DNA of 64,000 nucleotides from Shinella curvata (GTDB lineage Bacteria; Pseudomonadota; Alphaproteobacteria; Rhizobiales; Rhizobiaceae). Made by a program: the position numbers and the translations under genes. Numbering within the stretch: position 1 is the stretch's first letter; every line of letters starts with the position of its first letter. Location of the stretch: positions 1 through 64,000 of the forward strand of contig NZ_JALJCJ010000010.1 of NCBI RefSeq assembly GCF_022899935.1, read 5' to 3'. Positions 1,883 to 50,181 of the stretch are shown here, piece by piece. Under the pieces are notes generated by a model. It ran no database searches, was not told the DNA's origin, and worked only from the letters and a program-made list of their open reading frames with translations.

Positions 1883-4495
1883 CTAACGGTAGAGCACCGA
1901 TGAAAGTGCGGCCACGATTGCCTTTCGGCTGTAGGGCTTGCGTACAATAGGGACACTATCGAACATTTCTGGCAGTTCTGCACCCTCGCCGTACCCGGTC
2001 GCGAACACAAAAGGCGTTCCCCTCTTGTGCAATTCTTCAGCCACCGCGAAGGAAGTCGTTGGACCAAGATTGATGTCGAGGATAGCCAGGTCCGGTGGGC
2101 TAGCCCCGATCTGTACCATTGCCTGCTTTACGGAATTGGTCGTCACGACCTTCGACAAGCCCTCATCGGCGAGCATGGCCTCGAGGTCCAGAGCGATCAG
2201 CATCTGGTCCTCGACGATGAGCACGGAAGGGTTGGCGGCCTTAAGGGCGTTCGGGTGTGTGGACAGGTCGTTCGGCGTGTCGGTTGCCAGTGCCGACCTC
2301 GAGACGGTGAGCTTCACATGAGGCGGTGGGATCTTGAAGGTCGCCTCCAGCCCCGCGGGTTCGAAGCGGATCGCGCTTTCGCCATTGAGGTCGTAGGGAA
2401 CGCTACGCTCGATCAGGGCGCTGCCGAAGCCGCTGCGCGAGGGAACGTGTACGATGGGGCCGCCGTGCTCCCGCCAGCGGATTTCGCAGACTGTGTCGTT
2501 CGCCATCGTCCAGGAAATCTCCACCGAGCCAGTCGCGACCGACAGGGCGCCATATTTGGCGGCATTGGTTGCAAGCTCGTGAAACACCAGCGCCATGACG
2601 GAGAACGCTCTGCTGTCGAGCCAGACGGCGGGCCCGGAACAACTGACGGTCGATGCCTTGGTCCGATAGGGCTGAAGTTCCGCCTGCAACAGATCAGCCA
2701 GAATGCCGCCGCCATCGCCGCGCACCACCTGGTCATGAGCCACCGACAGGGCCTCGATGCGGCCCTGCAGCGTGGCGACATAGTCCTCCAGGGTGCTCTT
2801 GTGATGCTGCGGGCTCGTCACCAGCGACTTGATGACGGCCAGGATGTTTTTCACACGATGGCTCAGCTCCTGGTTCAGCATGCGCTGCCGCACCTCGGAT
2901 TTGCGCCGCTCGCCCGCCATCAGTTCGTTGTGGCGCAGAACGATTTCGACGATCGAAACCCGCGCGATTTCGGCGATTTCCCGTTCGGCCTCCGTCCAGG
3001 CCTGAGCCTGCGCCTTCACGGTTTCCTTCCAGATCGCGAAGCTCTTCCGGGGTGTGAGCCGGTCACCGAGCGGACCGGTCTCGTAGGTCTTTTCAGGGTT
3101 GCCTGCCCAGTCCAGCGTCTGCACCAGTTCCTTCCGGAAAAAGAGGAGGCAATCCGAGCCTGTCTGCGAGAGCGGAATGGCGAGCAGACCGGACACCCGG
3201 TCGCTATAGGCTGCGGCTTCCGGCACCTTCAGGGATAGCGTGTGCGTTGCCCAGACGCGGCCATCGCTGGCAATCCTGACGACCTCGAGAAGACGGGCGA
3301 CCGCATCCTCGGGCGGCGTGGCACGAAGGCCCGTCCATTTCCCGTCAAACATCAAGCCGACCCCGTCATTCGGCAGGAGCCGGGAAAACTCCTCCAGGCT
3401 CTGACTAAGCAGCGCTCCGACATCCTCGTGATGAGCCGAGAGAATGAGAAAACGGTCGAGGGCTTCACGAGTACCGGCAACGGCTGAGACGCGCTTGCGT
3501 TCCTTGAGGGATTTCAGGTGAAGCGAGAAGAATTCACCGAACACCTCCATCGCCACGCGCTGTGCCATGGGAAGCGCAAGCGGCGAATAGTGGTGGCAGG
3601 CAATCAGGCCCCAAAGCGTGCCATCGACAATAATCGAGATCGACATGGAGGCCGCGACCCCCATGTTGCGCAAATACTCGCAATGAATGGGCGAAACGCT
3701 GCGCAGATGGGCAAAACTGAGATCGAGCGGCTCGCCGGACGCATCCAGGACAGGGGTTACCGGCACCCGCTCGCCGCTGGCGTCAGCAATCACGCGGATC
3801 GTGTTTTTGAGATACAGAGCACGGGCTTGCTGAGGAATGTCGCTTGCCGGGAAATACTGGCCGAGAAAGCTCTCAAGATCGGCCCGTTTCGTTTCGCTGA
3901 CGACCTTGCCGGAGCCGTCCTGCTCGAAACGGTAGATCATGACGCGGTCGTAGCCGGTCGCACCCGCAACGATTCGACCTGCGCGCTGCACGAGACGGTC
4001 GACATCGGTGATGTCGCTGATGCGGCCGATCATTTCGCGCGCAATATGCAGCGGCTGGCCGACCACAGGCGCCGGCTCGAACTCGATGATGACGGCGGAT
4101 TTATAGTGGTGGATTGCAATATCGAAGGCGCGCTCGCCGCACATTACGTCCAGAAGGAGCGCGGGCCGCGCCGCCGTCGATGCGGTTGCGAGCGCATTGC
4201 GCAGGTCATGCAGCAACTTCTGGCCGACGACCTCGCCGACACCGCGACCGAGTAAATCGCGTTCGAAGCCCAGGATTGCCTGCGCATTCTCTGACACGCG
4301 CTCGATCGTCGTTAGGCCGATATCGCAGGCCAGTAGGCAACCATGCGACTGTATGCTGCCGGGAATATGGATAGGCTCTCGGTCGCAGGTATCCAGATTT
4401 ACAGGTTCATTGGGCGACAACGATTTCACTTTCAAAGCATTGCAGGGCGAAGGCGAAGACTGCGTTGGCAGACGCCGCGGCCCGTTCAACGTCAA
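1883..4495 (-). CDS. bphP: bacteriophytochrome HWE histidine kinase with C-terminal receiver
   Basis: Red/far-red photoreceptor kinase of 870 aa, cytosolic, using biliverdin. The order is: a PAS region with the chromophore Cys at residue 37 (DTCDREPIHIPG), GAF with PASDIP at 216-221 and the SPIHCEYLRNMGV loop at 268-280, PHY with the PRKSF tongue motif near 482, an HWE-type kinase with His546 (ELSHRVKN), FHELATNAAKYGALS and WRE, and a receiver from about 758 with phospho-acceptor Asp807. PAS-GAF-PHY-HWE-receiver is the architecture of Agrobacterium Agp2, often a bathy phytochrome; that spectral type is inferred. The start is uncertain: the ATG at 4495 lies 89 bases inside bphO, and a later GTG or TTG would put the Cys nearer the usual residue 13-20. 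It forms an operon with the biliverdin-making heme oxygenase upstream. No separate output protein is seen nearby. Confidence 0.93.
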   Translation of the reverse strand: MTLNGPRRLPTQSSPSPCNALKVKSLSPNEPVNLDTCDREPIHIPGSIQSHGCLLACDIGLTTIERVSENAQAILGFERDLLGRGVGEVVGQKLLHDLRNALATASTAARPALLLDVMCGERAFDIAIHHYKSAVIIEFEPAPVVGQPLHIAREMIGRISDITDVDRLVQRAGRIVAGATGYDRVMIYRFEQDGSGKVVSETKRADLESFLGQYFPASDIPQQARALYLKNTIRVIADASGERVPVTPVLDASGEPLDLSFAHLRSVSPIHCEYLRNMGVAASMSISIIVDGTLWGLIACHHYSPLALPMAQRVAMEVFGEFFSLHLKSLKERKRVSAVAGTREALDRFLILSAHHEDVGALLSQSLEEFSRLLPNDGVGLMFDGKWTGLRATPPEDAVARLLEVVRIASDGRVWATHTLSLKVPEAAAYSDRVSGLLAIPLSQTGSDCLLFFRKELVQTLDWAGNPEKTYETGPLGDRLTPRKSFAIWKETVKAQAQAWTEAEREIAEIARVSIVEIVLRHNELMAGERRKSEVRQRMLNQELSHRVKNILAVIKSLVTSPQHHKSTLEDYVATLQGRIEALSVAHDQVVRGDGGGILADLLQAELQPYRTKASTVSCSGPAVWLDSRAFSVMALVFHELATNAAKYGALSVATGSVEISWTMANDTVCEIRWREHGGPIVHVPSRSGFGSALIERSVPYDLNGESAIRFEPAGLEATFKIPPPHVKLTVSRSALATDTPNDLSTHPNALKAANPSVLIVEDQMLIALDLEAMLADEGLSKVVTTNSVKQAMVQIGASPPDLAILDINLGPTTSFAVAEELHKRGTPFVFATGYGEGAELPEMFDSVPIVRKPYSRKAIVAALSSVLYR

Positions 4496-4988
4496 AGTTC
4501 TGAGCTTCGTCCAAGAGTAATAGAAAGGACTGCCAGTGCGCTATGTCCTTTGACATAACGGCGAGATGGCGTGCGCCAAGAAATTCATCGAAACCGAGCG
4601 CAGCAGCCCTTTTTTGGAGGATTCGAGCACCGAGGGTGGAACCTTCGATCACGTAAAGCGCACCTAGCAAGGCGCTTTGGTTCGCAAGTCTCATGCCGAA
4701 ATGGGCATTGCGGATGTCAATTGCAGACAGGCCCAGGTCAACGTTGTCGCGCTCAAGCACATCGCTGACGGCAGTCGGCCGCCACTCCCAACAGACCGGC
4801 CAGGCAACGTGTCTCAGTGCTTCATCCATTGCAGCGCGGAACCTTGTCAGCCCCACCAGATAACGTCGATATTGATCGATGGTATCAAAGCCACCTACAA
4901 TTGAGTCAAGGCGCTGATGCGCCGCTTGAGTACGTTCCCTAAGCTCAAACCGTCGTTCGCTAATAGCCAATTCTACTTTTCCCTCCAT
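4407..4988 (-). CDS. bphO: biliverdin-producing heme oxygenase
   Basis: Converts heme to biliverdin IX-alpha, CO and iron, supplying the chromophore for the phytochrome encoded immediately downstream. The 193-aa product has the proximal heme ligand region LRERTQAAHQRLD (His24) and the helix YVIEGSTLGARIL typical of bacterial heme oxygenases. I chose the ATG at 4988 because the longer start at 5036 is a TTG without a ribosome site; the one before 4988 is also poor. The 3' end overlaps the annotated bphP start, indicating a coupled bphO-bphP operon. Confidence in function is high because both the motifs and the gene pairing agree. Confidence 0.88.
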   Translation of the reverse strand: MEGKVELAISERRFELRERTQAAHQRLDSIVGGFDTIDQYRRYLVGLTRFRAAMDEALRHVAWPVCWEWRPTAVSDVLERDNVDLGLSAIDIRNAHFGMRLANQSALLGALYVIEGSTLGARILQKRAAALGFDEFLGARHLAVMSKDIAHWQSFLLLLDEAQNFDVERAAASANAVFAFALQCFESEIVVAQ

Positions 4989-5096
4989 CAAGAGGTTGGG
5001 AGCATCGGGGCAAAATTCCCCACGCTGTATGTGCAAATATCTGTTTTTCGGGTGGAGGGACTTGCGTAGTCATCCCGATAAGGAGCCGCGCAAGAA

Positions 5097-5997: not shown

Positions 5998-6588
5998 TCA
6001 GCCGACCTGCTCCACCGACAAGGCGCGCCCTGAAAGCGGCCTGATCAGGGGCTTTGCCGAAACGGTGGGATCGAGCCAATCGACCCACGCGTCCCGCTCC
6101 AGGATCACGATCTGACGATCGTGATAGGGCGCCATGTCGGGACCCGGCTCCATGGTGAGCATCGTGAAGGCCTCGCCGACGTCATCGGTCTCCCGCCAGA
6201 TCCCCGCAATCGCGAAGATCGGCTCACCGACCTTCTTGAAGAGCCATTTGTCCTTACGCTTCTTCTTCGGGTCCTTCGGGGTCGTGAATTCGTAAAAGCC
6301 ATCGGCGATGATGAGGCAACGGTTGGAGGCGAACTCTCGCCCTTCCGAGCGAAAATTGTAGACGGGTTTGCGGGCCGGGCTCGGCCAACTCCACCGACGC
6401 TGGACAAGCTCGCCGGCGCCCCGTTCGCCTTCGACGGATCGGACAATCGGCGCCGTGTCGGTAATCTTGATGTCCTCGCGCGCTTCGATGTTCGGCCGTC
6501 CCTCGGGAAACCGGATCTTGATCTTCAGGTGCTCGAACTCCTCGATCACAGATGCGAGTTCGACCATGAGGCGATAGTCATTGCACAT
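5998..6588 (-). CDS. SOS response-associated peptidase (SRAP, YedK/HMCES family)
   Basis: SRAP proteins form a DNA-protein crosslink with abasic sites in single-stranded DNA through Cys2, protecting the lesion from error-prone processing. Cys2 is present (MCNDYR). Other expected active-site parts are YNFRSEGREF near residue 77, the GFYEF glutamate near 97, and PYHDRQ, whose His acts in crosslink chemistry. The length, 196 aa, is a little under the usual 210-230. It lies 102 bases after dinB on the same strand and probably ends the uvrD-like / dinB / SRAP operon driven from the region with the LexA box at 10011, which fits an SOS role. Confidence 0.9.
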   Translation of the reverse strand: MCNDYRLMVELASVIEEFEHLKIKIRFPEGRPNIEAREDIKITDTAPIVRSVEGERGAGELVQRRWSWPSPARKPVYNFRSEGREFASNRCLIIADGFYEFTTPKDPKKKRKDKWLFKKVGEPIFAIAGIWRETDDVGEAFTMLTMEPGPDMAPYHDRQIVILERDAWVDWLDPTVSAKPLIRPLSGRALSVEQVG

Positions 6589-6690
6589 CGATCTTCGGCT
6601 CCATCCTTTTGATCAGCGCAGGGTGGCCAGTTGCATGTAACGCGGCCGGATGAGATTTCGACGCATTTCGCGGCGATTGTGGCCCCAATT

Positions 6691-7791
6691 CTAGATCTGC
6701 AGCTCGAACTGACTGGCTTCGTTTTCCTCCTCCTCGCTGAACGAGGAAAGCGTCAATCCGAGAAGGCGAATGCCCTTGGCCGTCGGAAACAGGGGGGCAA
6801 GGAGAGCGTAGCCGATGGCTTCGAGCGCATCGGCGGCGTTGATCGACGTTGGGACCGTGCGACTGCGCGTAATGGTCTGGAAGTCGGCATATTTCACTTT
6901 CAGTGTGACTGTGCGACCTTTCAGGTCCTTGCTTTCGCAATGGCGGGATACCTTGGTCGCGAGCGGTGTGATCTCAGCACGCGCGGCGTCAAGATCGAAG
7001 ATATCGATCGTGAAGGTGTCCTCGGCGCCGACGGACTTGCGCGGCCGATCCGGTTGAACGGCCCGGTGATCGATGCCTCGAGAGATGTTGTAGTACCAGG
7101 CGCCCGACTTACCGAAATGCTCCTGCAGGAAGGAAAGCGATTTCGCCTTGAGGTCGGCGCCGGTCAGGATGCCTAGCCGCTCCATCTTGGCTGCGGTTGC
7201 CGGTCCGACTCCATGAAACTTCTTGACCGCGAGTTCTTCGACGAAGGCCGCTCCATTCTTCGGCGTGATCACGGCCTGACCATTCGGCTTGTTGAGGTCC
7301 GACGCCATTTTGGCGAGGAATTTGCAGTAGGAGATGCCAGCAGACGCGTTGAGGCCGGTTACTTCCTTGATGCGCGTGCGAATGATCGTGGCGATCTCGG
7401 TTGCGATCGGGATGCCCTGCTTGTTGTCCGTCACGTCGAGATAGGCCTCGTCGAGGGAGAGGGGTTCGATCAGGTTGGTGTGTTCAGCAAAAATCTCGCG
7501 GATCTGTCCCGAAACCGCACGATAGACGTCAAAACGCGGTGGCACGAAAATGAGGTCGGGGCAGCGGCGCTTTGCTGTCACGGATGGGAGGGCGGAGCGA
7601 ACACCAAAGGCGCGTGCCTCGTAGCTTGCTGCAGCGACCACGCCGCGGGCGGCCGCGCCACCGACGGCGACAGGTTTGCCGCGCAGGTCCGGATTGTCCC
7701 GCTGCTCCACCGAGGCATAGAACGCATCCATGTCGACATGGATGATCTTCCTCGTCGGTGTGCCATCGTCCCCGCTCATTTCATTTCTCAT
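6691..7791 (-). CDS. dinB: DNA polymerase IV (Y family)
   Basis: Error-prone translesion polymerase, 366 aa. The catalytic acids are visible: Asp20/Asp22 in HVDMDAFYA and Asp114/Glu115 in SLDEAYLD. Next come helix-hairpin-helix motifs around KFHGVGPATAAKM and the little-finger domain. The C-terminal QFELQI may be a beta-clamp binding motif. The start at 7791 gives an ATGA overlap with the uvrD-like stop; a second ATG lies four codons later. It is the middle gene of a leftward repair operon (helicase, Pol IV, SRAP). A chromosomal dinB usually also exists in rhizobia, so this is probably an extra plasmid copy; that is inference. Confidence 0.95.
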   Translation of the reverse strand: MRNEMSGDDGTPTRKIIHVDMDAFYASVEQRDNPDLRGKPVAVGGAAARGVVAAASYEARAFGVRSALPSVTAKRRCPDLIFVPPRFDVYRAVSGQIREIFAEHTNLIEPLSLDEAYLDVTDNKQGIPIATEIATIIRTRIKEVTGLNASAGISYCKFLAKMASDLNKPNGQAVITPKNGAAFVEELAVKKFHGVGPATAAKMERLGILTGADLKAKSLSFLQEHFGKSGAWYYNISRGIDHRAVQPDRPRKSVGAEDTFTIDIFDLDAARAEITPLATKVSRHCESKDLKGRTVTLKVKYADFQTITRSRTVPTSINAADALEAIGYALLAPLFPTAKGIRLLGLTLSSFSEEEENEASQFELQI

Positions 7792-9857
7792 TTCCACATC
7801 GAGCGCATGCGTGCTCCAACATCGATCCGGATCTGCTTTGCACTTCGCTCGCTGGCGGCGGCCGAGACTTTCGGCCAACTGGTGGTCTCGAAGAACTGCA
7901 GGAGCGTCGCCGGAATGAAACGCGTCCGCGAGGCATAGACGTGCCGGTCGCCCTGGGCATTCTGGCCATGCGTGAAGAAGCGCTGCGGCGTGACGAGGCT
8001 CAAGCTGTCTCTCGCCCGGGTCATCCCGACATAGAGCAGACGGCGCTCTTCCTCGAGCTCCGCGGTGGTGCCGGCGCCGAGGTCGGAGGGGATGCAGCCG
8101 TCAACCACATTGAGCATGAAGACGGCGCGCCATTCCTGCCCCTTGGCGGAGTGGATCGTCGAGAGGATCAGATAATCATCATCGAGTAGGGGAACACCGG
8201 CCTGGTCGCTGGTCGCGTCCGGTGGGTCGAGGGTGAGTTCGGTGAGAAAACGCTCCCGGCTACCATAACCGCCGGCGATCTGCCCAAGTTGAATGAGGTC
8301 AGCCTTACGGGTATCCGCGTCTTCATGAATGCGATCGAGATGCGGTTCATACCAAAGGCGCGCAAGGCCGATTTCACCGGGCCATCCGCTTTCCGATTTG
8401 CGAAGGGCTGTCAGCAGTTCGACTAAGGCGGGCCAGTCCTCGCCTGTCTTGGGCGGCGGCGGGATTTCGGCGAGTGATTGAAGTGGCTCGGGGTCGGCGG
8501 TAATCGTGTCGAGGATCTTGCCCGCCGTCTGAGGCCCGATACCGGGTAGCATCTGCAGCAGGCGGAAGCCGGCAACGCGATCGCGCGGGTTCTGCGCGAA
8601 ACGCAATGTCGCCAGCAGGTCCTTCACATGCGCGCTGTCGAGGAATTTAAGCCCACCGAACTTCACGAACGGGATATTGCGGCGGGTCAACTCCACTTCC
8701 AGGGCGCCGCTATGGCTCGATGTCCGGAAGAGGACCGCCTGCTGCTTCAGGGTCATTCCCACTTCCCGGTTCGCCAAGACCTGCTCGACAATGTAGTTGG
8801 CCTGGTCTGTCTCGTCCTTCACCGTGACGAGCATAGGGCGCTGTTCGGATTCCCGGTCCGTCCAAAGGTTCTTGGTAAAGCGTTCACGGGCAAGATCGAT
8901 GACGCCATTGGCGGCCTTGAGGATCGGCTGCGTCGAGCGATAGTTGCGATCGAGCGTGATCACGTCGGCCGGCTTCGGCGAGAATTCCTTCGGGAAGTCG
9001 AGAATGTTGCGCACCGTCGCGGCGCGGAAGGAATAGATCGATTGCGCGTCGTCGCCCACAACGGTCAGGCCGCGGCCGCCGGGCTTGATACCCATGAGGA
9101 TTGAGGCCTGCAGGCGGTTGGTGTCCTGGTACTCATCGACAAGTACATGGTCGAAGCGGCCGCCGATATCATCGGCAAGCTCGGGGTCTGCCATCACCTG
9201 CGCCCAGTAGAGCAGCAGGTCGTCGTAATCGAGCACGTTCTGCGCCTGCTTGGCCTCGACATAGCCGGCGAAGAGCTGCTTCAACTGCTCTTCCCAGCCC
9301 ATGACATAGGGATAGGCCGATTTTAGGACCTCGTTGATCGAGCTCTCGGAATTGACCACGCGCGAATAGATGGCAAGGCAGGTGCCCTTGGTCGGGAACC
9401 GGGTTTCCATCTTCGAGAAACCGAGTTCGTGGCGCACGAGGTTCATCAGGTCGGCGCTGTCTTCCCGATCGTGGATGGTGAAGTCGACATTCAGGCCGAT
9501 CTGCTCGGCATACATGCGCAGGAGCCGGGCGCCGATGCCGTGAAAGGTACCTGCCCAGGCCAGCGCGTCGGTCATGACGGCAGAGTTGTCGCCGAGCACC
9601 TGCCGGCAGATGCGCTGCACCCGACGGGCCATCTCCGATGCGGCACGCCGCGAGAAGGTCATGAGCAGGATGCGGCGCGGATCCGCGCCATTGACGATCA
9701 GGTGACCGACCCGATGGGCAAGCGTGTTGGTCTTTCCCGACCCTGCGCCAGCAATGATCAGCAGCGGTCCGCCTATCCCGCCATCCGGTAGCCCGATCCC
9801 GTGCTCGACCGCCGCGCGCTGGCGGTCATTCAGTTTCTCCAGATAGGCTGCCGTCAT
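7788..9857 (-). CDS. UvrD/Rep/PcrA-type superfamily 1 DNA helicase
   Basis: 3'-5' ATP-dependent DNA helicase of 689 aa. Visible motifs in order: Q motif (LNDRQRAAVEHG), Walker A (AGAGSGKTNTL), Ia (LMTFSRRAASEM), II (VDEYQDTN), III (VVGDDAQSIYSFRAA), IV (LDRNYRSTQ), V (STIHSAKGQEW) and VI (VGMTRARDSL). I chose the ATG at 9857, preceded by TTGGGGTCAG, because the Q motif follows promptly; the in-frame extension to 9965 adds unrelated residues. It is the first gene of an operon with dinB (ATGA overlap) and the SRAP gene. The promoter lies in the 219-base divergent space shared with imuA, where the LexA box sits. It is shorter than chromosomal UvrD, so it is probably an accessory helicase for translesion repair. 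Confidence 0.92.
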   Translation of the reverse strand: MTAAYLEKLNDRQRAAVEHGIGLPDGGIGGPLLIIAGAGSGKTNTLAHRVGHLIVNGADPRRILLMTFSRRAASEMARRVQRICRQVLGDNSAVMTDALAWAGTFHGIGARLLRMYAEQIGLNVDFTIHDREDSADLMNLVRHELGFSKMETRFPTKGTCLAIYSRVVNSESSINEVLKSAYPYVMGWEEQLKQLFAGYVEAKQAQNVLDYDDLLLYWAQVMADPELADDIGGRFDHVLVDEYQDTNRLQASILMGIKPGGRGLTVVGDDAQSIYSFRAATVRNILDFPKEFSPKPADVITLDRNYRSTQPILKAANGVIDLARERFTKNLWTDRESEQRPMLVTVKDETDQANYIVEQVLANREVGMTLKQQAVLFRTSSHSGALEVELTRRNIPFVKFGGLKFLDSAHVKDLLATLRFAQNPRDRVAGFRLLQMLPGIGPQTAGKILDTITADPEPLQSLAEIPPPPKTGEDWPALVELLTALRKSESGWPGEIGLARLWYEPHLDRIHEDADTRKADLIQLGQIAGGYGSRERFLTELTLDPPDATSDQAGVPLLDDDYLILSTIHSAKGQEWRAVFMLNVVDGCIPSDLGAGTTAELEEERRLLYVGMTRARDSLSLVTPQRFFTHGQNAQGDRHVYASRTRFIPATLLQFFETTSWPKVSAAASERSAKQIRIDVGARMRSMWK

Positions 9858-10010
9858 CTGACCCCAAATTTTCCTAAGAAAAAATTCCTCATCCGTTCCC
9901 TCCACCCATCCCTTTGATCGGCCTTGCTGAATCGCAAAAGTCGACCCGTTGAAGGCGACCATCATGGTCGGGAGCGCCGTTTCGGGTGGATTGACTCACC
10001 CGCGCATTGG

Positions 10011-10025
10011 GAACAAAAAAGGAAC
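10011..10025. promoter_or_regulatory. LexA-binding SOS box
   Basis: GAAC-AAAAAAG-GAAC is a perfect match to the alphaproteobacterial LexA site (GAAC-N7-GAAC, equal to GTTC-N7-GTTC on the other strand), with the usual A-rich spacer. It lies 52 bases before the imuA start and about 154 bases before the divergent uvrD-like helicase start, so LexA could repress both mutagenesis operons. Confidence 0.88.
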
Positions 10026-10076
10026 ATATCAGCTTAAACAGCCGCTGGAAACCCCTGAAGGAGCGCACTTTCTGCC

Positions 10077-10835
10077 GTGTCGAAGCCTGCTCACAATCCT
10101 GTGCTTGCCGAGCTTCGCGAGCGGATCGGCCAGTTGGAAGGCAAAGCCGCCCGCGCCAAGGCTGTGCTGCCATTTGCAGTGCCGGAAATGGACAGGGCAC
10201 TGCCGGGCGGTGGCCTAGCCTTTGGCGCCCTGCATGAGATTGCGGGTGGGGGAGGCGGTACGATCGATGGGGCGGCGGCGGCGTTGTTCGTCGCGGGGAT
10301 TGCCGCTCGAACACGTGGCAAGGTGTTGTGGTGCATGACGCGCCCAGACCTCTTTTTTCCGGCGATTTCGCAGGCGGGCCTTCATCCCGATCGCGTGATC
10401 TGGTGCGAGAGCGACAAGGAGGAACAGGTCCTTTCGGCAATGGAAGAGGGGCTTTCGTTCGGCGGGCTTGCGGCCGTGGTGGGCGAGCTTGTGCGCCTGC
10501 CGATGAATGCCTCCCGGCGTCTTCAACTGGCGGCGGAGAAGACAGGCGCCATGGCGATCGTTCTTCGGCGATGGCGAAGGCAGAACGAGGCCTCGGACTA
10601 TGGGCAGCCGACGGCCTCGACGACACGGTGGCGCATCAGCACGCTGCCGTCCGAACGATTGCCGGTCGCGGGTGTCGGGAGGGCCCGGTGGCTGGCGGAG
10701 ATAATGCGTGTGAAGGCGGGTGAGTGCGCCGAGTTTGAAATTGGAGCTCCCGATGCCAAGGGTCGTGTCTGTCTACTTCCCACTTCTACCGGTCGAGCGG
10801 ATCAGGCGGCAGGCTGGCGAAGCCTTGCCGGCTGA
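10077..10835 (+). CDS. imuA: ImuA, RecA-like component of the translesion mutasome
   Basis: First gene of the SOS mutagenesis cassette imuA-imuB-dnaE2. The 252-aa product has a RecA/SulA-like fold (LPGGGLAFGALHEIAG in the N-terminal third, then a LWCMTRPDLFFPA strand) and acts with ImuB and DnaE2 in damage-induced error-prone synthesis. The start is a GTG; GAAGGAG lies about 15 bases upstream. The LexA box at 10011-10025 lies between this gene and the divergent helicase. The 3' end overlaps imuB by 83 bases, implying translational coupling. The canonical Walker A is degenerate, as usual for ImuA. Confidence 0.9.
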   Translation: MSKPAHNPVLAELRERIGQLEGKAARAKAVLPFAVPEMDRALPGGGLAFGALHEIAGGGGGTIDGAAAALFVAGIAARTRGKVLWCMTRPDLFFPAISQAGLHPDRVIWCESDKEEQVLSAMEEGLSFGGLAAVVGELVRLPMNASRRLQLAAEKTGAMAIVLRRWRRQNEASDYGQPTASTTRWRISTLPSERLPVAGVGRARWLAEIMRVKAGECAEFEIGAPDAKGRVCLLPTSTGRADQAAGWRSLAG

Positions 10836-12267
10836 CAAGCCGCTGGTCGTGATATCCCGCAGCGGCTCAAAACGCTGGATTTCAGCGGCCGATCCCACAG
10901 CGCTCAAACTTGGCCTCAGGATTGGAATGCCGGCCAGCAAGGCGCAGGCCATGGTCGCCGATCTCGTGATGGTCGATGCTGCACCCGCCGAGGATGCCGC
11001 AGCGCTCGAGCGATTGGCGCTCTGGGCACTCAGACAGTACAGCCCCGTCGTCGCCATCGATGGAACGGATGGTCTGGTCATCGACACCGAGGGGGCAGAC
11101 CACTTGCAGGGGGGCGAAGCGCTTCTGCTCTCCGGCCTCGCCAACCGGCTGCGCGCCCGGGGCCTGACTGCGCGCGCAGCCGTAGCCGACAGTTGGGGCG
11201 CCGCGCACGCGCTTGCACGATTGCTGGCTTCGGACACGACTGTCGTGCCGATCGGTGACATCAGCCAGGCCGTCATCGACTTGCCGATCGTTGCCTTGCG
11301 TCTTCCTGCGGAGACCATCCAAGGTCTGCGTGTTCTCGGCGTCGACACCGTCGGCCAACTCTCCGCCATGCCGCGGGCGCCTTTGACCCTGCGGTTTGGG
11401 CCGGAACCGGCGCGCCGGCTCGACCAGATGTTTGGCCGCGTCGCCGAGCCGATCGAGCCGATCCGCACTCCAGAGCTCATCGAGGTTGCCAAGAATTTTG
11501 CCGAGCCGATCGGTGCGCCGGAGACGATCGCGAAATATGTCCGTCGGCTCGTTGGTCAGTTGTCCACCCGTCTTGCCGACGAGGGGCTCGGTGTGCGCCG
11601 GTGCGATCTTGTCATTCACCGGGTCGACAATACGCGGCAGCATCTTCGTGCCGGCCTTGCCAAACCTGTCCGGGATCCGGCGCGCCTGTCGAAACTCCTG
11701 TGCGATCGCATTGAGACCATAGAGCCGGGCTTTGGCATCGAGAAGATGGTGCTCGTCGCCATCTTTGCCGAACCGCTCGAGGAGCGTCAGGTCGCCTCTT
11801 GCCTGATCGAGGAGGAGATCGCGGATGTCTCGCCACTCGTCGATATTCTCGGCAATCGCGGCCACCGGCTGTTCCGGGTCGCACCGGTCGCCTCTGATGT
11901 TCCGGAACGGTCCGTGCGGCGGATTGCTCCAACAGCGCCCGATATTGGCGAGGCCTGGGCCGTCAAATGGCCCCGGCCGACACGATTGTTCGCCAATCCC
12001 GAGCGCATCGAGGTCATCGCGCTTCTGCCGGACCAGCCGCCGGCGGTGTTCACCTGGCGCGGCAAGCGTCGGAAAGTCGCTCGCGCCGACGGCCCGGAAC
12101 GGATTTTTGGGGAATGGTGGCGGCGGCCGCGCGAATTCCAGGCAGTGCGAGACTATTTCGTGGTCGAGGATGAACTTGGCGAGCGCTATTGGGTCTATCG
12201 CGCCGGTGACGGCATCGATCCCGAAACCGGCTCGCATCTCTGGTTCGTGCATGGGGTGTTCGGATGA
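10753..12267 (+). CDS. imuB: ImuB, catalytically inactive Y-family polymerase homologue
   Basis: Hub protein of the ImuA-ImuB-DnaE2 mutasome; in other bacteria it binds the beta clamp and recruits DnaE2. The 504-aa product keeps the Y-family fold, but the polymerase acids are missing: the first motif reads [13 protein letters not shown] where active enzymes have two Asp, and the second reads [13 protein letters not shown] instead of DE. A possible clamp motif, HRLFRV, lies near residue 370. The ATG at 10753 follows TTGGAGCTCCCG and sits inside imuA. The stop overlaps dnaE2 as ATGA. Presumed SOS-regulated through the LexA box upstream of imuA. Confidence 0.92.
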
Positions 12268-15200
12268 ACTATGCCGAGCTTCAGGTCACGACGCATTTCT
12301 CGTTCCTGCGCGGCGCGTCGGGTGCCGAAGAACTGTTTGGGACTGCGGCCGCTCTCGGGATCGACACGCTGGGCGTCGTCGATCGCAACAGCCTGGCCGG
12401 CATCGTGCGCGCCTGGGAGGCGGCCAAGTCCACCGGCGTGCGGCTCGTTGTGGGTTGCCGCCTTGATCTCACGGATGGCATGTCCATCCTCGTCTATCCC
12501 ATGGATCGGCCGGCCTATTCGCGTCTGACGAGGATGTTGTCCGTCGGCAAGAGCCGGGGCGGGAAGGGCAATTGCCTGATCGATTTTGCCGATGTGGCGG
12601 ACCATGCCGCCGGAATGATCGGTGTTCTCGTGCCTGACGAAGCCGACGAGACCTGTGGTGTCCAGCTTCGCAAGATGGCGGACCTGTTTGGCGACCGCGC
12701 CTATGTCAGCCTGTGCCTTCGCCGGCGGCCGAACGACCGCATGCGCCTGCATGGCATCGCCTCTATGGCTCGCCGCTTCAAGGTGAGGACCGTCGTCACA
12801 AACGACGTCCTGTTTCACGAGCCCGGCCGGCGGCAATTGCAGGATGTCGTGACCTGCATCCGGACCAGAACCACCATCGACGATGTCGGCTTTGATCGGG
12901 AGCGCCATGCGGATCGCTACCTGAAAGCGCCTGAAGAGATGCATCGACTGTTCAGCGACTATCCGGAAGCTCTGGCCCGCACCCGCGAGATCGCCGCCCG
13001 CTGCACATTCGATCTCGGTGAATTGCGATACCAGTATCCGGAAGAAGCGATCGTGCCTGGTCTCGACCCACAGCAGTCGCTCGCCAAGTTCACGTGGGAA
13101 GGTGCTGCCGACCGATATCCCGAGGGGATTCCCCACAAGGTTCGACAGTCGCTACGACATGAGCTCGAGCTCATCCGGGCCATGAACTACGCGCCGTACT
13201 TCCTGACAGTCTTCTCGATTGTTCGCTTTGCCCGCTCAAAAGACATTCTCTGTCAGGGCCGGGGATCGGCGGCAAACTCGGCCGTCTGCTACTGCCTCGG
13301 CGTGACGTCGATCGATCCGGAAACCAATGATCTTCTGTTCGAACGTTTCATTTCCCAGGAACGCGACGAGCCGCCGGACATCGATGTCGACTTTGAGCAT
13401 GAGCGCCGCGAGGAGGTCATCCAATGGATCTACGACACCTACGGCCGGACCAAGGCGGCGCTCTGCTCCACGGTGACGCGTTATCGCGCCAAGGGCGCGC
13501 TACGGGATGTCGGCAAGGCGCTCGGACTGCCGGAGGACATGATCGGCCAGCTGTCATCCGGCGTCTGGGGCTGGTCGGAGGGCGTCTCCGAGCGACAGCT
13601 GAGAGAGAACAATCTCAATTCGGCCGACTATCGGCTGAAGCTGGCCCTGGAACTGGCGCAGCAGTTGATGGGCGCGCCGCGGCATCTTGGCCAGCACCCG
13701 GGTGGCTTCGTGCTGACCCATGACCGCCTTGACGACCTTGTGCCGATCGAGCCGGCTCGCATGGACGATCGCCAGGTCATCGAATGGGACAAGGATGACA
13801 TAGAGGCACTGAAGTTCATGAAGGTGGACGTGCTGGCGCTTGGCATGCTCACCTGCATGTCGAAGGCCTTTGCGCTGATGGCTGCACACAAGGGCGAGGT
13901 CTGGGATCTCGCCTCGATCCCTTCGGAGGACCCGCGCACCTATGCGATGATCCGCAAGGCCGATACGCTCGGCACCTTCCAGATCGAAAGCCGCGCGCAG
14001 ATGTCCATGCTGCCGCGCCTGAAACCCAATACCTTCTACGACCTCGTCATTCAGGTGGCCATCGTCCGGCCGGGTCCGATCCAGGGCGATATGGTCCATC
14101 CCTATCTTCGCCGGCGCGAGGGCAAGGAGAAGGTGGAATATCCAACGCCGGAATTGGAGGCGGTTCTTTCGAAGACACTCGGCATTCCACTGTTCCAGGA
14201 GAGCGCAATGAAGGTGGCGATGGTCTGCGCCGGCTTTACCGGCGGTGAGGCGGACCAGCTTCGCAAATCCATGGCGACCTTCAAGTTTTCGGGTGGCGTT
14301 TCGAAATTCAAGGCCAAGCTCGTCTCGGGCATGGTGAAGAACGGCTACACCGAAGGGTTCGCCGAACGGACCTTCAGTCAGTTGGAGGGGTTCGGTTCAT
14401 ACGGTTTTCCCGAAAGCCATGCCGCAAGCTTCGCGCTCATTGCCTATGCCTCCAATTGGGTGAAATGCCATCATCCCGATGCCTTCTGTGCCGCGCTTCT
14501 GAACTCCCAGCCGATGGGCTTCTATGCCCCGGCCCAGATCGTGCGCGACGCGCAGGAACACGGTGTGGAAATCCGGCCGGTCTGCGTGAACGCCTCACGT
14601 TGGGACTGCATGATCGAGGAGGTGGAAGGAAGCAAATGCCACGCTGTCCGCCTCGGCATGCGCATGGTGAAGGGGCTGTCGATCGCGGACGCCGCCCGTA
14701 TCGTTGCGGCCCGTGCGGATGAGCAGTTCACTTCGACTGATGATCTCTGGCGCCGATCCGGCGTGCCAACGGCCGCTCTTGTGAAGCTTGCCGAAGCGGA
14801 TGCGTTCCTGCCGTCACTCGGTCTCCAGCGTCGAGACGCCTTATGGGCGATCAAGGGACTGCGCGACGAGCCGCTGGCGCTCTGGGCCGCGGCCGCCGAT
14901 CGAGAGGCGCGCGAGGTCGCTGAACTGCAGGAGCCCGGCGTAGACCTCCCATCGATGCGGGCCGGGCATGAGGTGGTCGAGGACTATTCCCATGTTGGGC
15001 TTACCCTTCGCCAGCATCCGATTTCGTTCCTCCGCGAGGATTTGCGGAGAAAGCGCATGGTCACCTGCGCGGAGGCGATGTCTGAGCGCGACGGTCGCTG
15101 GTTGATGACCGGCGGGCTGGTCCTGGTTCGCCAACGGCCGGGTTCCGCCAAGGGCGTCATGTTCATGACGCTCGAGGACGAGACGGGCATCGTCAACGCA

Positions 15201-15527
15201 GTTGTATGGCCGACAATTTTCGAGCGCCAGCGGCGGCTGGTACTCTCGGCATCCATGCTGGCGATCAACGGGAAGATTCAGCGGGAAGGGGATGTCGTGC
15301 ATCTCGTTGCCCAGCGGCTTTTTGACCTGTCTGAAGACCTGAGCCGCCTCGGTGAACGGGATGAGAAGTTTCCGTTGCCTCATGGGCGGGGCGATGAATT
15401 CGCGCATGGAAACGGGGCATCGGATTCGCGAGAGCAGCGGCCGAAGGCTGCGGCACCTGCCCGGGACATATTCATTCCTGATCTGCTGATCGATCGCCTC
15501 AAGATAAAGAGCCGCAACTTCCACTGA
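12264..15527 (+). CDS. dnaE2: DnaE2, error-prone DNA polymerase III alpha subunit
   Basis: C-family replicative-type polymerase that performs damage-induced mutagenic synthesis with ImuA and ImuB. The 1087 aa match DnaE2 length. An N-terminal PHP domain begins [14 protein letters not shown]. The palm motifs [15 protein letters not shown] and [16 protein letters not shown] carry the catalytic Asp residues, and the fingers contain [11 protein letters not shown] and [22 protein letters not shown]-terminal OB fold includes [13 protein letters not shown]. Translation is coupled to imuB by an ATGA overlap. An 11-bp inverted repeat lies 16 bases after the stop. Chromosomal copies of this cassette are common in rhizobia, and plasmid copies are also known. 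Confidence 0.95.
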
Positions 15528-16545: not shown

Positions 16546-17460
16546 TTGTTCGGAACGGGGGAGACGAGGGATCCGGAAAAGAAAGCCCAATCTCCGTCCA
16601 CACACGATGTGCGAGGTATCGGGGACGAAATCGAGATGGTCCGCTGGCTTGAAGAAACCGGCCGCTATCGTGTTCTGCGGAAACTCAAGGCACGCGCCAT
16701 TGCGAATGCGCCGCGGCCCGGCTTTCCAATGCGCGGCGTCATCGTCGATACGGAGACGACGGGACTTAGTGCCCGCAAGGACGAAATCATCGAGATCGGG
16801 ATTGTCGCCTTCAGCTTCGACAAGACCGGAAACATCGGTGATGTCACTGGTATCTATTGTGGGCTGCAGCGGCCGAGCATCGCCATTCCCGCTAACATCA
16901 CGCGCTTGACTGGCATCACGGACGCCATGGTGGCCGGCCAGACGATCGACATTGCACGGGTGCAGGCGCTGATCGCACCCGCCGATCTCATCGTCGCTCA
17001 TAATGCCGGCTTCGACCGCCCTTTCTGTGAAACCTTTTCCCGGGCCTTCGCGCCGAAGGCATGGGCCTGTTCGGTCTCCGAGGTCGACTGGTCGGCCCGC
17101 GGCTTCGAAGGAACGAAACTTGGCCGCGCCGTCGACGACTGCTTCGCGCTGCTCGAGGTCCTGGCCCAAAGCGGACCAGACCAGGGCAACACACCGTTCG
17201 CCGAGCTTTTCGCGGCAAGCCAGCGCTCGCGAGTGCGCATCTTTGCCGAGCACAGTCCCTTCGAGATGAAGGATAATCTCAAGGCCCGTGGATACCGATG
17301 GTCGGACGGGACTGACGGGAGGCCGAAATCGTGGTGGGTCGAGGTTGCGGACGACATGCTCGACGAAGAACTCCGCTATCTGCGCGCCGAGATCTACCGT
17401 TGGCCCGACGCCGATCCGCCGATCCGGCGCCTGACAGCTCTCGAGCGCTTCAAGGCTTGA
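16546..17460 (+). CDS. DnaQ-like 3'-5' exonuclease, probably missing catalytic motif III
   Basis: Belongs to the DnaQ/epsilon exonuclease fold. ExoI is clear (GVIVDTETTGL, near residues 65-75) and so is ExoII (IVAHNAGFDRPF). The C-terminus carries DNLKARGYRWSDG and KSWWVEV, a region seen in rhizobial homologues. In the homologues I recall, GTKLG is followed by about 14 residues that include the His of ExoIII before RAVDDC. Here GTKLG runs directly into RAVDDC, so that His is absent and activity is doubtful. The start is a TTG at 16546, right after an in-frame stop, while the family-like residues begin at once, so the 5' end may also be trimmed; ATG 16636 is an alternative. 304 aa. Confidence 0.75.
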   Translation: MFGTGETRDPEKKAQSPSTHDVRGIGDEIEMVRWLEETGRYRVLRKLKARAIANAPRPGFPMRGVIVDTETTGLSARKDEIIEIGIVAFSFDKTGNIGDVTGIYCGLQRPSIAIPANITRLTGITDAMVAGQTIDIARVQALIAPADLIVAHNAGFDRPFCETFSRAFAPKAWACSVSEVDWSARGFEGTKLGRAVDDCFALLEVLAQSGPDQGNTPFAELFAASQRSRVRIFAEHSPFEMKDNLKARGYRWSDGTDGRPKSWWVEVADDMLDEELRYLRAEIYRWPDADPPIRRLTALERFKA

Positions 17461-33069: not shown

Positions 33070-33336
33070 ATCCCCCGCAAGACCGCGTTGCAATTCCTGG
33101 ATTGCCCGTTCGCTGTGCATGGAGCGGCCATCACGCTGTTCGACGAGCCGACATCCGCCCTCGATCCAGAAATCGTGTCCGAAGTGCTCGATACGATGAA
33201 GAGCCTGGCGCGCGACGGCATAACCATGGTTTGCGTCACCCACGAAATGGCCCTTGCCCGCGCCGCTGCCGACCGGGTGACCTTAATGAATGACGGCACC
33301 GCTGACTCAAAAGTTCATGATACGTTCGTGGTATGA
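33070..33336 (+). pseudogene. polar amino-acid ABC transporter ATPase remnant
   Basis: The frame from 33088 gives LFDEPTSALDPEIVSEVLDT followed later by VCVTHEMALARAAADRV. These are the Walker B, D-loop and switch-His region of GlnQ/HisP-type ATPases. Just upstream, in a different frame, DRVAIPGL is a trace of the signature helix (QQRVAIARAL). Walker A and the N-terminal half are missing. Confidence 0.8.
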
Positions 33337-33882
33337 AAAGTCGAACGGTCTGCATCTTACGAATACCCTAGTCTGGCTGCCGAAAGTTCCATAATAAGTC
33401 TTATGTGATAAGTTATAACATTACATCGCGTTACCGCGGCGCCCTATTACGAGCTAGCAGCTGAGTTCACAAATATTTCCAGCATCAGAGATGCTCCCCA
33501 CGAAATCCTCGAACTTCGAGACCTCGCCAAATATCAACGTTGACATCAGCACGTTGTCGCGGGCTGTCCGAAATTTAAGTACAAATTCTGTTCAGTGGCA
33601 TGGCGGTGTGCACCCTGCATTCCGGTACGAGAACGACGCAACGACGGCATGATAACAGAAAACAACGAGCGCCTGTCGGACAGCACCGCCCGGAAACAAA
33701 CCAATCCCGCTCTCTCGTGATGGCGTCCTGGCACCGGTCCGGATCTTCCACGATCAACCCGCAAGGGATCCGCTAGCAAGCTGCGGCCGCTTGGCTTTGC
33801 CTGCGCGGTGATCGCGCCCGGCCCCGCGCCTTTTCGGAGCCATCGAGCGGGAATTGGCCCGCTCCCGGATGGAGCCTCTCAA
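33337..33882. other. noncoding stretch, 546 bases
   Basis: No frame with good coding character or ribosome site was found; AT content is locally higher around 33370-33480. It probably marks a boundary between decayed DNA and the plasmid leading-region block that starts at 33883. Confidence 0.5.
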
Positions 33883-46860: not shown

Positions 46861-49800
46861 GTGGCCGTCCCGCATTTCTCAGTCAGCATCGTCGCCCGCG
46901 GCTCCGGCCGCAGTGCTGTGCTGTCGGCTGCCTACAGGCACTGCGCCAAGATGGACTATGAGCGGGAAGCCCGCACGATCGACTACACCCGCAAACAGGG
47001 ATTGCTGCACGAGGAGTTCGTCATCCCCGCCGATGCGCCGGAATGGCTCCGGTCCATGATCGCCGAGCGCTCGGTGTCCGGTGCCTCGGAGGCTTTCTGG
47101 AACCGGGTGGAGGATTTCGAGAAGCGGTCGGATGCGCAGCTCGCCAAGGACGTCACCATCGCACTTCCGATCGAACTCTCGACAGAGCAAAACATTGAAA
47201 TGGTCCGAGACTTCGTGGCTCGGCATATCACAGCTCAAGGCATCGTGGCTGACTGGGTCTTCCATGACGCGCCGGGCAATCCCCACATCCATCTGATGAC
47301 AACGTTGCGGCCGCTGACAGAGGACGGTTTCGGCTCGAAAAAGGCGGCGGTCACTGGACCCGACGGCAATGTGCTGCGCAACGATAGCGGCAAGATCGTC
47401 TATCAGCTTTGGGCCGGCGGGCTCGAGGACTTCAATGCGTTTCGCGATGGCTGGTTCGCCTGCCAGAACCGGCATCTCGCTCTTGCCGGGCTCGACCTTC
47501 GCGTCGACGGGCGCTCCTTCGAAAAGCAGGGCATCGAGCTGACCCCGACGATCCATCTCGGCGTCGGCACGAAGGCGATCGAGAGGAAGGCGGCCAGCGG
47601 GGATGGGAGGGCGGATGAGAAAGCTGCGCTCGAACGCCTGGAACTGCAGGAAGAGCGGCGGGCGGAGAACGCTCGCAGGATCCAGCGCAGTCCGGAGATC
47701 GTCCTTGACCTGATCACGCGGGAAAAAAGTGTCTTCGATGAGCGCGACGTCGCAAAGATCCTGCACCGCTACATCGACGATGCGGGCCTCTTCCGTAGCT
47801 TGATGGCGCGCATCCTTCAGAGCCCCGAAACCCTTCGTCTTGATCGCGAGCGGCTGGACTTCGTGACCGGGGTGCGTGCGCCCGCAAAATATACCACACG
47901 CGAGCTGCTCAGGCTCGAAGCCGATATGGCCAATCGAGCGATCTGGCTCTCGCAGCAGTCGTCGCATGGTGTCCGCAAGTCCGTGCTCGAGGCGACGGTC
48001 GGGCTCCACGACCGGCTGTCCGACGAGCAGAAAGCCGCCATCGAACATGTCGCCGGTCGCGAGCGGATCGCCGCCGTGATCGGCCGGGCCGGCGCGGGCA
48101 AGACCACGATGATGAAGGCGGCCCGCGAAGCCTGGGAAGCCGCCGGCTATCGTGTTGTCGGTGGCGCGCTCGCCGGCAAGGCAGCCGAAGGTCTGGAGAA
48201 GGAAGCGGGCATCGTCTCGTGCACGTTGTCATCCTGGGAACTCCGTTGGAACCAGCGACGCGGGCAGCTCGATGACAAGACAGTCTTCGTGCTGGACGAG
48301 GCCGGGATGGTGTCGTCTCGGCAGATGGCGACAATTGTCGAAATGGTCACCAGATCTGGCGCGAAGCTCGTGCTCGTCGGCGATCCGGAGCAGCTTCAGC
48401 CGATCGAAGCGGGTGCTGCGTTTCGGGCGATCACTGAGCGCATCGGCTATGCGGAGCTGGAGACCATCTATCGCCAGCGCGAGCAGTGGATGCGCGAGGC
48501 ATCGCTCGATCTGGCGCGCGGAGAAATCGGCAAGGCTGTCTCTGCCTATCAGGCGAACGGCAAGATGATGGGCTCCGAGCTGAAGGCTGATGCCGTCACC
48601 AACCTCATTGCCGACTGGAACCGCGACTACGATCCCGCCAAGTCGACGTTGATCCTCGCTCACTTGCGCCGTGATGTCCGGATGCTGAACGATTTGGCGC
48701 GCGCAAAGCTCATAGAGCGCGGCGTCATTGATCAGGGTTTCGCGTTCAAGACTGCTGATGGAGACCGCAATTTTGCCACTGGCGATCAGGTCGTCTTCCT
48801 GAAAAACGAGGGTTCTCTTGGCGTCAAGAACGGCATGCTGGGCAAAATCGTAGCAGCGGCGTCAGGTCGTATCGTCGTGGCGATCGGCGAGGGAGATGAT
48901 CTACGTGAGGTCAACCTCGAGCAGCGATTCTACAACAACATCGACCACGGTTACGCCACAACGGTTCACAAGTCTCAAGGCGCGACGGTCGATCGCGTCA
49001 AGGTGCTGGCATCTCTCTCGCTCGATCGTCACCTGACCTATGTAGCGATGACCCGTCACCGCGAGGATCTCGGCGTCTACTACGGCAGCCGATCCTTCGC
49101 CAAGGCCGGTGGACTCGTCGAGATCCTGTCGCGCAGGAATTCCAAGGAAACCACGCTCGATTATGCGGGCGGCAGCATCTATCAGCAGGCGCTCCGCTTT
49201 GCCGAGACGCGCGGGCTTCACATCGTCAACGTCGCCAGGACCATCGCGCGCGACCGTCTCGAATGGACGGTGCGGCAGAAGCAAAAGCACGCCGATCTCG
49301 CCGGCCGGCTTGCGGCCATCGGTGCCAAGCTCGGCTTCGCAACGTCGGCGGCGAGAACAATTCCCATCGCAGCAAAGGAGGCCAGGCCCATGGTTGCCGG
49401 TATTACGACCTTCCCGAAATCGATCGATCAGGCCGTCGAGGACAAGCTCGCGGCCGACCCCGCGCTCAAGAAGCAATGGGAAGAAGTCTCGATGCGCTTC
49501 CATCATGTCTACGCACAGCCAGAAGCGGCCTTCAAGGCGGCGAATGTGGATGCAATGCTGATCGATCAGGCGACCGCGGCGAAGGCGATTGCAAAGATTG
49601 CCGCAGAGCCGGAGGTGCTCGGTGCGCTGAAGGGCAAGACAGGGGTGTTCGCGAGCCGGGCCGATAAGTCGGACCGAGATCGGGCGCTTAGGAATGTCAC
49701 GCCGTTGGCCGATAGCATCAGCGACTATCTGCGCCAGCGCGGCGATGCAGAGCGGCGAAACCACGCTGAGGAGCTGGCGGTTCGGAAACAGGTCGCGCTT

Positions 49801-50181
49801 GAAATCCCTGCACTTTCGGCGAATGCAAAGAGCGTGCTCGAACGTGTTCGCGACGCCATTGATCGAAACGATCTGCCAGCCGGCCTTGAGTATGCCTTGG
49901 CGGACAAGATGGTGAAGGCCGAACTCGAAGGCTTTGCCAAGGCGGTGACCAAGCGTTTTGGGGAACGGACATTCCTGCCTCTCGCCGCCAAGGATGCCAA
50001 CGGCGAGGCGTTCCAACGGGTCACGTCTGGCATGAACGCAACGCAGAAGAGCGAGGTCGGCCAGGCCTGGAACACGATGCGGACCGTGCAGCAGTTGTCT
50101 GCTCATGAAAGAACTGTGACCGCGCTAAAAGCCGCTGAGGCCATGCGTCAGACCAAGAGCCAGGGACTGACGCTGAAATGA
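46861..50181 (+). CDS. traA: TraA, MOBQ relaxase-helicase
   Basis: 1106-aa relaxase that nicks oriT and unwinds the transferred strand. The N-terminal MobA/MobL domain has the catalytic Tyr25 (AAYRHC) and the metal-binding [11 protein letters not shown] (His135, His142, His144). The helicase domain has Walker [12 protein letters not shown] at 407-417, [19 protein letters not shown] and, near 700, [13 protein letters not shown]. The C-terminal 300 residues are TraA-specific. The start is a GTG at 46861 with GAAGGAG 12 bases upstream. The stop overlaps traF by 4 bases. Together with oriT and traCDG this is a typical Ti/pRetCFN42a-type DNA-processing system. Confidence 0.97.

Follow-up and report, generated by a model that had tools for sequence, protein, structure and literature searches.

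Plasmid copies of the imuABC cassette are described in rhizobia and Cupriavidus and are over-represented in rhizobial lineages (Remigi 2014, PMC4151985), and genes of the SRAP family have been linked to DinB, to ImuA-ImuB-DnaE2 and to a RecD-related superfamily 1 (SF1) helicase (Aravind 2013, PMC3765255). The alphaproteobacterial LexA regulon is presented in PMC3323433 with a predicted core that includes dinB and/or polB and imuA-imuB-dnaE2 and with the direct repeat GTTC-N7-GTTC, and the same source gives the divergent uvrA-ssb pair of E. coli a single common LexA site. Here we describe a locus of Shinella curvata, located in 64,000 nucleotides (nt) of contig NZ_JALJCJ010000010.1 (positions 1 to 64,000, referred to as the window), in which a helicase-dinB-SRAP arm and an imuA-imuB-dnaE2 arm stand head to head (5998-15527). 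We read it as a plasmid-borne SOS mutagenesis island whose two divergent operons would share one common LexA operator, and put the probability of this reading at roughly 0.83.

In common with the cassettes of PMC4151985, the locus has imuA-imuB-dnaE2 in the same order, a LexA box in front of imuA and a position on a large plasmid; it differs from them in the facing arm, dinB and the helicase being absent from the main text of that paper. The combinations of SRAP with DinB and of SRAP with imu genes resemble neighbourhoods presented in PMC3765255. In contrast to these, the helicase is UvrD/PcrA-like, and all three genes are in one arm that faces imuA across one LexA box. The arrangement of two divergent SOS genes around one LexA operator, here predicted, is shared with uvrA-ssb of E. 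coli, although that pair serves excision repair and single-stranded DNA binding while two polymerase systems are found here. Neither a UvrD-like helicase nor SRAP is named among the alphaproteobacterial regulon members in section 7 of PMC3323433. Each component is thus already in print: imuABC cassettes on plasmids, SRAP alongside dinB or imu genes, and LexA sites shared by divergent genes. The open-access literature, searched mostly by listing, gave no report of a UvrD-like helicase as a LexA-box gene or of a helicase-dinB-SRAP arm on the imuA operator. The parts are known; the arrangement, within that search, appears new.

A LexA box between two predicted promoters

An earlier note on this DNA had placed a single LexA box in a 219-nt space between the arms. 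The box is an exact GAAC-N7-GAAC match, 51 nt from the imuA start and 153 nt from the helicase start, and corresponds to a conserved GTTC-N7-GTTC direct repeat near the putative promoters. The length of the space (9858-10076) is correct provided that the helicase starts at 9857. This start agrees with the alignments of most relatives, which begin at about residue 30-40, and with stop codons in the upstream frame in 11 of 13 two-armed loci, at most 10 codons from the start in eight of them (two pairs among the 13 are the same place). A start at 9965 was rejected on the alignment and on the same upstream stop codons. The box had also been called the only good one, which holds for 5998-15527 but not for the window, where five exact matches occur versus 2.11 expected (7 of 100 shuffles reach five). 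Genome-wide, 164 exact boxes were counted versus 81 for the reversed motif, and the one LexA match in the genome has an exact box about 50 nt upstream. An exact match alone is weak evidence; the weight is carried by conservation. A further exact LexA-type box (33313-33327) is accompanied by one-mismatch boxes at 33465 and 33579; no well-supported genes are found in this region.

Conservation was assessed in 77 helicase loci from named genomes, 75 of them with an assessable 5' part. At least one box is present in all 20 loci in which the helicase faces imuA, and 47 of the 55 others have a box within 200 nt. In a family sample of 59 solitary helicase promoters, which overlaps partly with the genomes of the 75-locus set, a box was found in 35 and the reversed-motif control in one. 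These boxes are concentrated among close relatives, in 30 of 32 at about 74% helicase identity or more. Because boxes precede solitary helicases and concentrate in this way, the helicase is a predicted LexA-box gene in its own right in one genome group, with or without imuA. On the other side, a box is located at most 300 nt upstream in 68 of 70 imuA loci.

The two kinds of solitary locus differ in the elements flanking the box. In solitary imuA loci TTGAC is positioned at a set distance on one side, and in many solitary helicase loci a TTTCCA-like -35 together with TGATAT is positioned on the opposite side. With motif patterns composed after inspecting the alignments, the imuA element was found in 31/33 two-armed, 42/45 solitary imuA and 4/72 solitary helicase loci, and the helicase element in 31/33, 3/45 and 51/72, respectively, places occurring twice being included in these counts. 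After removal of sequences at least 80% alike, the corresponding values are 11/13, 37/40 and 2/47 for the imuA element and 11/13, 3/40 and 31/47 for the helicase element. Weight matrices derived from solitary loci only gave scores above the 99% shuffled level in 11 and 10, depending on the matrix, of the 13 nonredundant two-armed loci; the matrices are good, but not sharp.

Loci with altered layouts add to the comparison. The arms are separated by about 2 kb in L064 and by about 480 nt in L069 and L077, and two boxes are present in each, which is expected if both arms need LexA; the helicase-side box of L069 and L077 is without the usual flanking elements. Four helicases without a detected imuA (L029, L072, L074 and L166, the last two on one contig) keep the imuA element and are perhaps remnants of a lost imuA arm. 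Conversely, imuA in L090 has the helicase element with no facing helicase detected, and in L091 dinB is found at that place. In nine imuA loci a dinB gene is found on the facing side at a distance of up to 1.5 kb; the imuA element is present in eight of them and the helicase-type element in seven, and in L123 (a place also covered by L235) a SRAP gene lies between imuA and the facing dinB. The predicted bidirectional promoter is retained while the gene behind it changes. Taken together, the separable promoter elements and the separated-arm loci give good comparative support to the single LexA switch that the earlier note had proposed for both arms.

Several observations weigh against this reading. 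A generic promoter scan called no consensus promoter in the 219-nt gap or the helicase leader, and the scan was no better than shuffles (1 promoter-like call versus 2.1 expected, 6 terminator-like versus 7.7). The imuA -10 (CAAAAA or AAAAAA) is poor. Among the 55 helicases not facing imuA, six are without a box within 500 nt and two more have one only near 500 nt; distant helicases (72% identity or less) have a box in just 5 of 27, and some boxes before solitary helicases are in the opposite orientation. Off-type passes occurred in 7/40 solitary imuA loci on the helicase matrix and in 4/47 solitary helicases on the imuA matrix, left-out training loci passed their own matrix in only 31/47 and 32/40 cases, and two-armed L069 and L077 fail both matrices while L135 fails the imuA matrix. 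In addition, SRAP is preceded by its own conserved promoter-like block (described below), and imuA and the helicase are non-adjacent in 32 of the 48 surveyed genomes that have both.

The box being nearer to imuA than to the helicase, and the mostly boxless distant helicases, would fit an alternative in which the box controls imuA-imuB-dnaE2 alone and the helicase arm is an unrelated neighbour, whose leader (about 160 nt) would contain a separate promoter independent of LexA. However, close solitary helicases are mostly boxed, many with the TTTCCA / TGATAT geometry and without imuA, and this geometry is kept in two-armed loci while it is rare in solitary imuA loci. Nor does the leader offer a consensus promoter or a convincing second operator. 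The candidate box at 9884-9898 (one mismatch) was rejected, as one of its halves reads GAAT in the window where GAAC is expected and the other (first) half is not kept in L001 and L002, although L004 retains the same imperfect form. We consider control of imuA-imuB-dnaE2 alone improbable.

Proteins of the two arms and the control of SRAP

The six genes and their strands proposed by the earlier note were borne out by Pfam and NCBIfam identities and by the coordinates of open reading frames (ORFs); all features are listed in Table 1. The helicase matches Pfam UvrD-helicase (207.7 bits) and UvrD_C (160 bits), and its nearest solved structures are PcrA/UvrD. It scores below every listed NCBIfam equivalog cut-off (uvrD, pcrA, rep), the best being pcrA with 376.5 of 911.2 bits, and its second-best match within its own genome (C11:692852) is 34% identical. 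Because it falls far under the curated cut-offs and the next match is so distant, the helicase is a distinct UvrD-like paralogue and not UvrD itself. DinB reaches 469.4 bits with the DNA polymerase IV model PRK02406 (cut-off 256) and has intact DMDAFY and SLDEAY motifs, so that both the model and the catalytic residues identify it as Pol IV.

In the right arm, ImuA matches ImuA_translesion with E 5.8e-16, but at 58.9 bits versus a cut-off of 150. ImuB matches Pfam IMS (37 bits) and IMS_C (32.3 bits), and in a pairwise alignment with DinB its first catalytic Asp is replaced by Tyr and the DE pair by DG, which points to loss of the catalytic residues. DnaE2 is of the error-prone type (PRK05672, 1387.5 bits, cut-off 939). 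The three genes are co-directional and overlapping, by 116 nt between imuA and imuB and by 4 nt between imuB and dnaE2. The coupling through ATGA overlaps that had been noted within both arms is found for helicase/dinB (7788-7791) and imuB/dnaE2 (12264-12267) but does not extend to SRAP, which follows dinB after 102 nt. Contig C14 of the genome holds another imuA-imuB-dnaE2 set (DnaE2 66% identical, with its own box, L137), and a further dinB has a box some 140 nt outside its matched stretch. The plasmid island is therefore an addition to a mutagenesis system already resident in the genome.

Table 1. Features of the Shinella curvata island (positions in the window)
Feature	Position	Strand	Basis
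SRAP (HMCES/YedK-like abasic-site protein), form a, 196 amino acids (aa), N-terminus MCN	5998..6588	-	Pfam SRAP; YedK structure match
dinB-SRAP gap, 102 nt, conserved promoter-like block	6589..6690	-	alignment of gaps
dinB, DNA polymerase IV, 366 aa, catalytic D and DE motifs present	6691..7791	-	NCBIfam PRK02406
UvrD/PcrA-like superfamily 1A helicase, 689 aa from Met37 of the long ORF	7788..9857	-	Pfam UvrD-helicase, UvrD_C
imuA -35-like element TTGACT, conserved distance to LexA box	9991..9996	+	alignment
LexA box GAAC-N7-GAAC (GAACAAAAAAGGAAC), common to both predicted promoters	10011..10025	+	exact match
helicase -10-like element TATGTT, overlaps LexA box	10023..10028	-	TGATATGTTC in most two-armed loci and many solitary helicases
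helicase -35-like element TTTCCA, 17 nt from -10	10046..10051	-	motif counts across loci
imuA, 252 aa, GTG start	10077..10835	+	NCBIfam ImuA_translesion, under cut-off
imuB, 515 aa, Y-family fold, catalytic residues lost	10720..12267	+	Pfam IMS, IMS_C
dnaE2 (imuC), error-prone DNA polymerase, 1087 aa	12264..15527	+	NCBIfam PRK05672

YedK and HMCES form a DNA-protein crosslink at abasic sites. The SRAP protein of the island has the SRAP domain (Pfam, 84.1 bits, cut-off 27.1) and matches YedK structures with E 1.1e-5 over residues 89-180, where the Glu and His segments are aligned. Cys2 of the MC N-terminus and the conserved Glu and His, which we take to be the catalytic residues of SRAP/YedK, are all present.

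Whether SRAP belongs under the single switch, as the earlier note had it, is uncertain at this locus. In the dinB-SRAP gap it is preceded by the promoter-like block TCGAAATC ... TTACAT (first base 6661, minus strand), which recurs in 14 aligned dinB-SRAPa gaps, several of them copies of one another, with the left part shortened in L010/L221 and the right part read as TTACAT, TAGATT or TAGGTT. The block is the sole match in the window, and a stricter pattern is found in three of five arm-type SRAPa loci. An alternative built on it is that LexA controls only helicase and dinB in the left arm, with SRAP as a constitutive passenger driven from the 102-nt gap; it also fits that no exact LexA box lies at 250 nt or less from any of the four arm-type SRAPa starts or from the apparent fragment L253. 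Against it, 7 of 11 solitary SRAPa loci have a LexA box of their own that begins 46-53 nt upstream of the start codon, and none has the control motif (four helicase-dinB-arm loci, one apparent arm fragment and one partial match were left out), no terminator was called in the 102-nt gap, and in another lineage a different SRAP (SRAPb) begins 9-12 nt past the helicase stop in the two loci read. We regard a passenger SRAP as a real possibility, though one we would bet against. By the box counts at solitary loci, SRAPa, the helicase and imuA are each often preceded by a predicted LexA box when standing alone.

The two SRAP forms mark two gene orders. Among 99 sources, duplicates included, helicase-dinB-SRAPa faces imuA in 13, this window among them, helicase-SRAPb-dinB occurs in 10 facing imuA and in 10 without imuA, and the helicase is alone in 37. 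In Rhizobium and Agrobacterium loci, the approximately 780 nt that seemed to lie empty between helicase and dinB proved to hold the second SRAP form. In addition, six loci with a boxed solitary SRAPa (L243, L245, L246, L247, L248 and L254) carry a second SRAP match, 32-38% identical and on the opposite strand, whose aligned part starts about 100-190 nt upstream; at these places two SRAP genes may share one operator.

Recurrence of the pairing and its replicon

In a survey of 297 genomes of the family, an imuA homologue (E 1e-15) was found in 96 and the helicase in 90 at the chosen thresholds. Both are present in 48 genomes, above expectation by a Fisher test that ignores kinship (p 8e-7), and stand head to head in 16, from 11 genera, versus about 0.01 expected by chance; the head-to-head pairs were picked by eye. 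The helicase-imuA arrangement recurs in these genera and in plasmid records (see below); a comparison of gene order across rhizobial plasmids had been suggested by the earlier note.

In a 101-helicase tree, the label for facing imuA is distributed in clusters (0/500 shuffles as low) but needs 11 changes, at least seven of them forced. One distant clade faces imuA in 6/7 rows, and the deeper branches sampled do not. Because of the label changes and these deep branches, the pairing has probably undergone several gains, losses or exchanges, between which the tree does not discriminate. Ancestral pairing was considered and dropped: the 6/6 imuA-facing clade of a first tree was a sampling artefact, its rows having been fetched for facing imuA, and after addition of 20 non-facing helicases the clade was 6/7 and the deep branches did not face imuA.

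These repeated changes, together with unequal arm histories, could also be taken to mean that plasmid shuffling brought the arms together by accident and that they have no task in common. Compared with Rhizobium daejeonense L001, the helicase is 96% identical, while dinB is 71%, imuA 73%, imuB 63% and dnaE2 76%, and recombination may swap modules of the island. The excess of adjacent pairs over chance, the clustering of the label and the recurrence of helicase, dinB and SRAP in two orders with two SRAP forms all run counter to an accident, which we hold to be the least probable of the explanations weighed here.

The conjugative nature of the replicon, also proposed by the earlier note, is confirmed by gene content. 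The window contains genes for a type IV secretion system coupling protein, a MobA/MobL relaxase-helicase, an S26 peptidase, TraH and LuxI/LuxR-type proteins, and a VirB4/TrbE-type ATPase and RepC are encoded beyond it on the same contig. Some part of the island is matched by 350 records of a plasmid collection. In three of these a single place gives a coverage of at least 80%, one of the three being a 4.6-Mb record that resembles a chromosome; coverage is 77-78% in five further Shinella records and 72% in one of Rhizobium daejeonense. At least the helicase-imuA core is present in nine other records of the collection (eight Shinella, one Rhizobium daejeonense). The transfer genes and these nine records support the view that the island is transferable, presumably as a unit.

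Other genes of the window include a relaxase-helicase with a C-terminal BID domain (46861-50181) and, left of the island, a bacteriophytochrome histidine kinase with a response regulator adjoining heme oxygenase (1883-5036). A KaiC-like ATPase overlapping a PAS histidine kinase with a receiver domain is also carried on the plasmid (28729-32377). About 1 kb downstream of dnaE2 an RNase_T/DnaQ-like exonuclease is encoded (16546-17460). It was rejected as a DnaE2 partner, since it is not annotated beside the island in plasmid NZ_CP131133 (one region, with an incomplete gene table).

Predicted mechanism and significance

In the shared-operator reading, two sigma-70-type promoters would lie across one another. 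For the imuA promoter, the -35 (TTGACT) would be placed to the left of the box and the -10 would fall within it. For the helicase promoter, the -35 (TTTCCA) would be placed to the right, and the -10 (TATGTT) would overlap the edge of the box, so that LexA bound at 10011-10025 would cover both -10 regions and block both arms. DNA damage would lead to RecA filaments, LexA self-cleavage and derepression of both arms, yielding ImuA-ImuB-DnaE2 from the right one and helicase, Pol IV and SRAP from the left one (SRAP directly, or partly from its own promoter). We infer LexA binding, induction and joint biochemistry alike from the comparisons above. The predicted start sites are about 10 nt apart, and because the overlapping promoters make simultaneous occupancy look impossible, promoter competition is predicted; RNA polymerase probably starts only one arm at a time per copy.

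Judging from the protein families, the helicase would probably strip the damaged template of RecA or stalled proteins, lesions would be bypassed by the two polymerase systems, and SRAP would cap abasic sites. The helicase, Pol IV and SRAP might even be physically part of the ImuAB-DnaE2 mutasome; that they are repeatedly linked argues for a shared task but not for a complex. A broader proposal is that the locus is one extended transferable translesion system, in which the overlapping promoters make the choice of arm mutually exclusive per firing, DnaE2 mutagenesis is balanced against helicase/Pol IV/SRAP tolerance in a damaged cell or a fresh transconjugant, and the UvrD-like helicase is a dedicated SOS partner of ImuAB-DnaE2 in Rhizobiaceae. 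We offer it tentatively and think it, as a whole, rather unlikely.

Plasmid imuABC sped adaptation after horizontal transfer in the one system reported in PMC4151985. Should the helicase, Pol IV and SRAP prove to be co-induced partners, mobile SOS mutagenesis would amount to a larger, modular package, and the UvrD-like helicase would become a new candidate factor for ImuAB-DnaE2 action. The predicted overlapping-promoter geometry would furthermore make a clean model for one repressor site dividing output between two mutagenic programmes.

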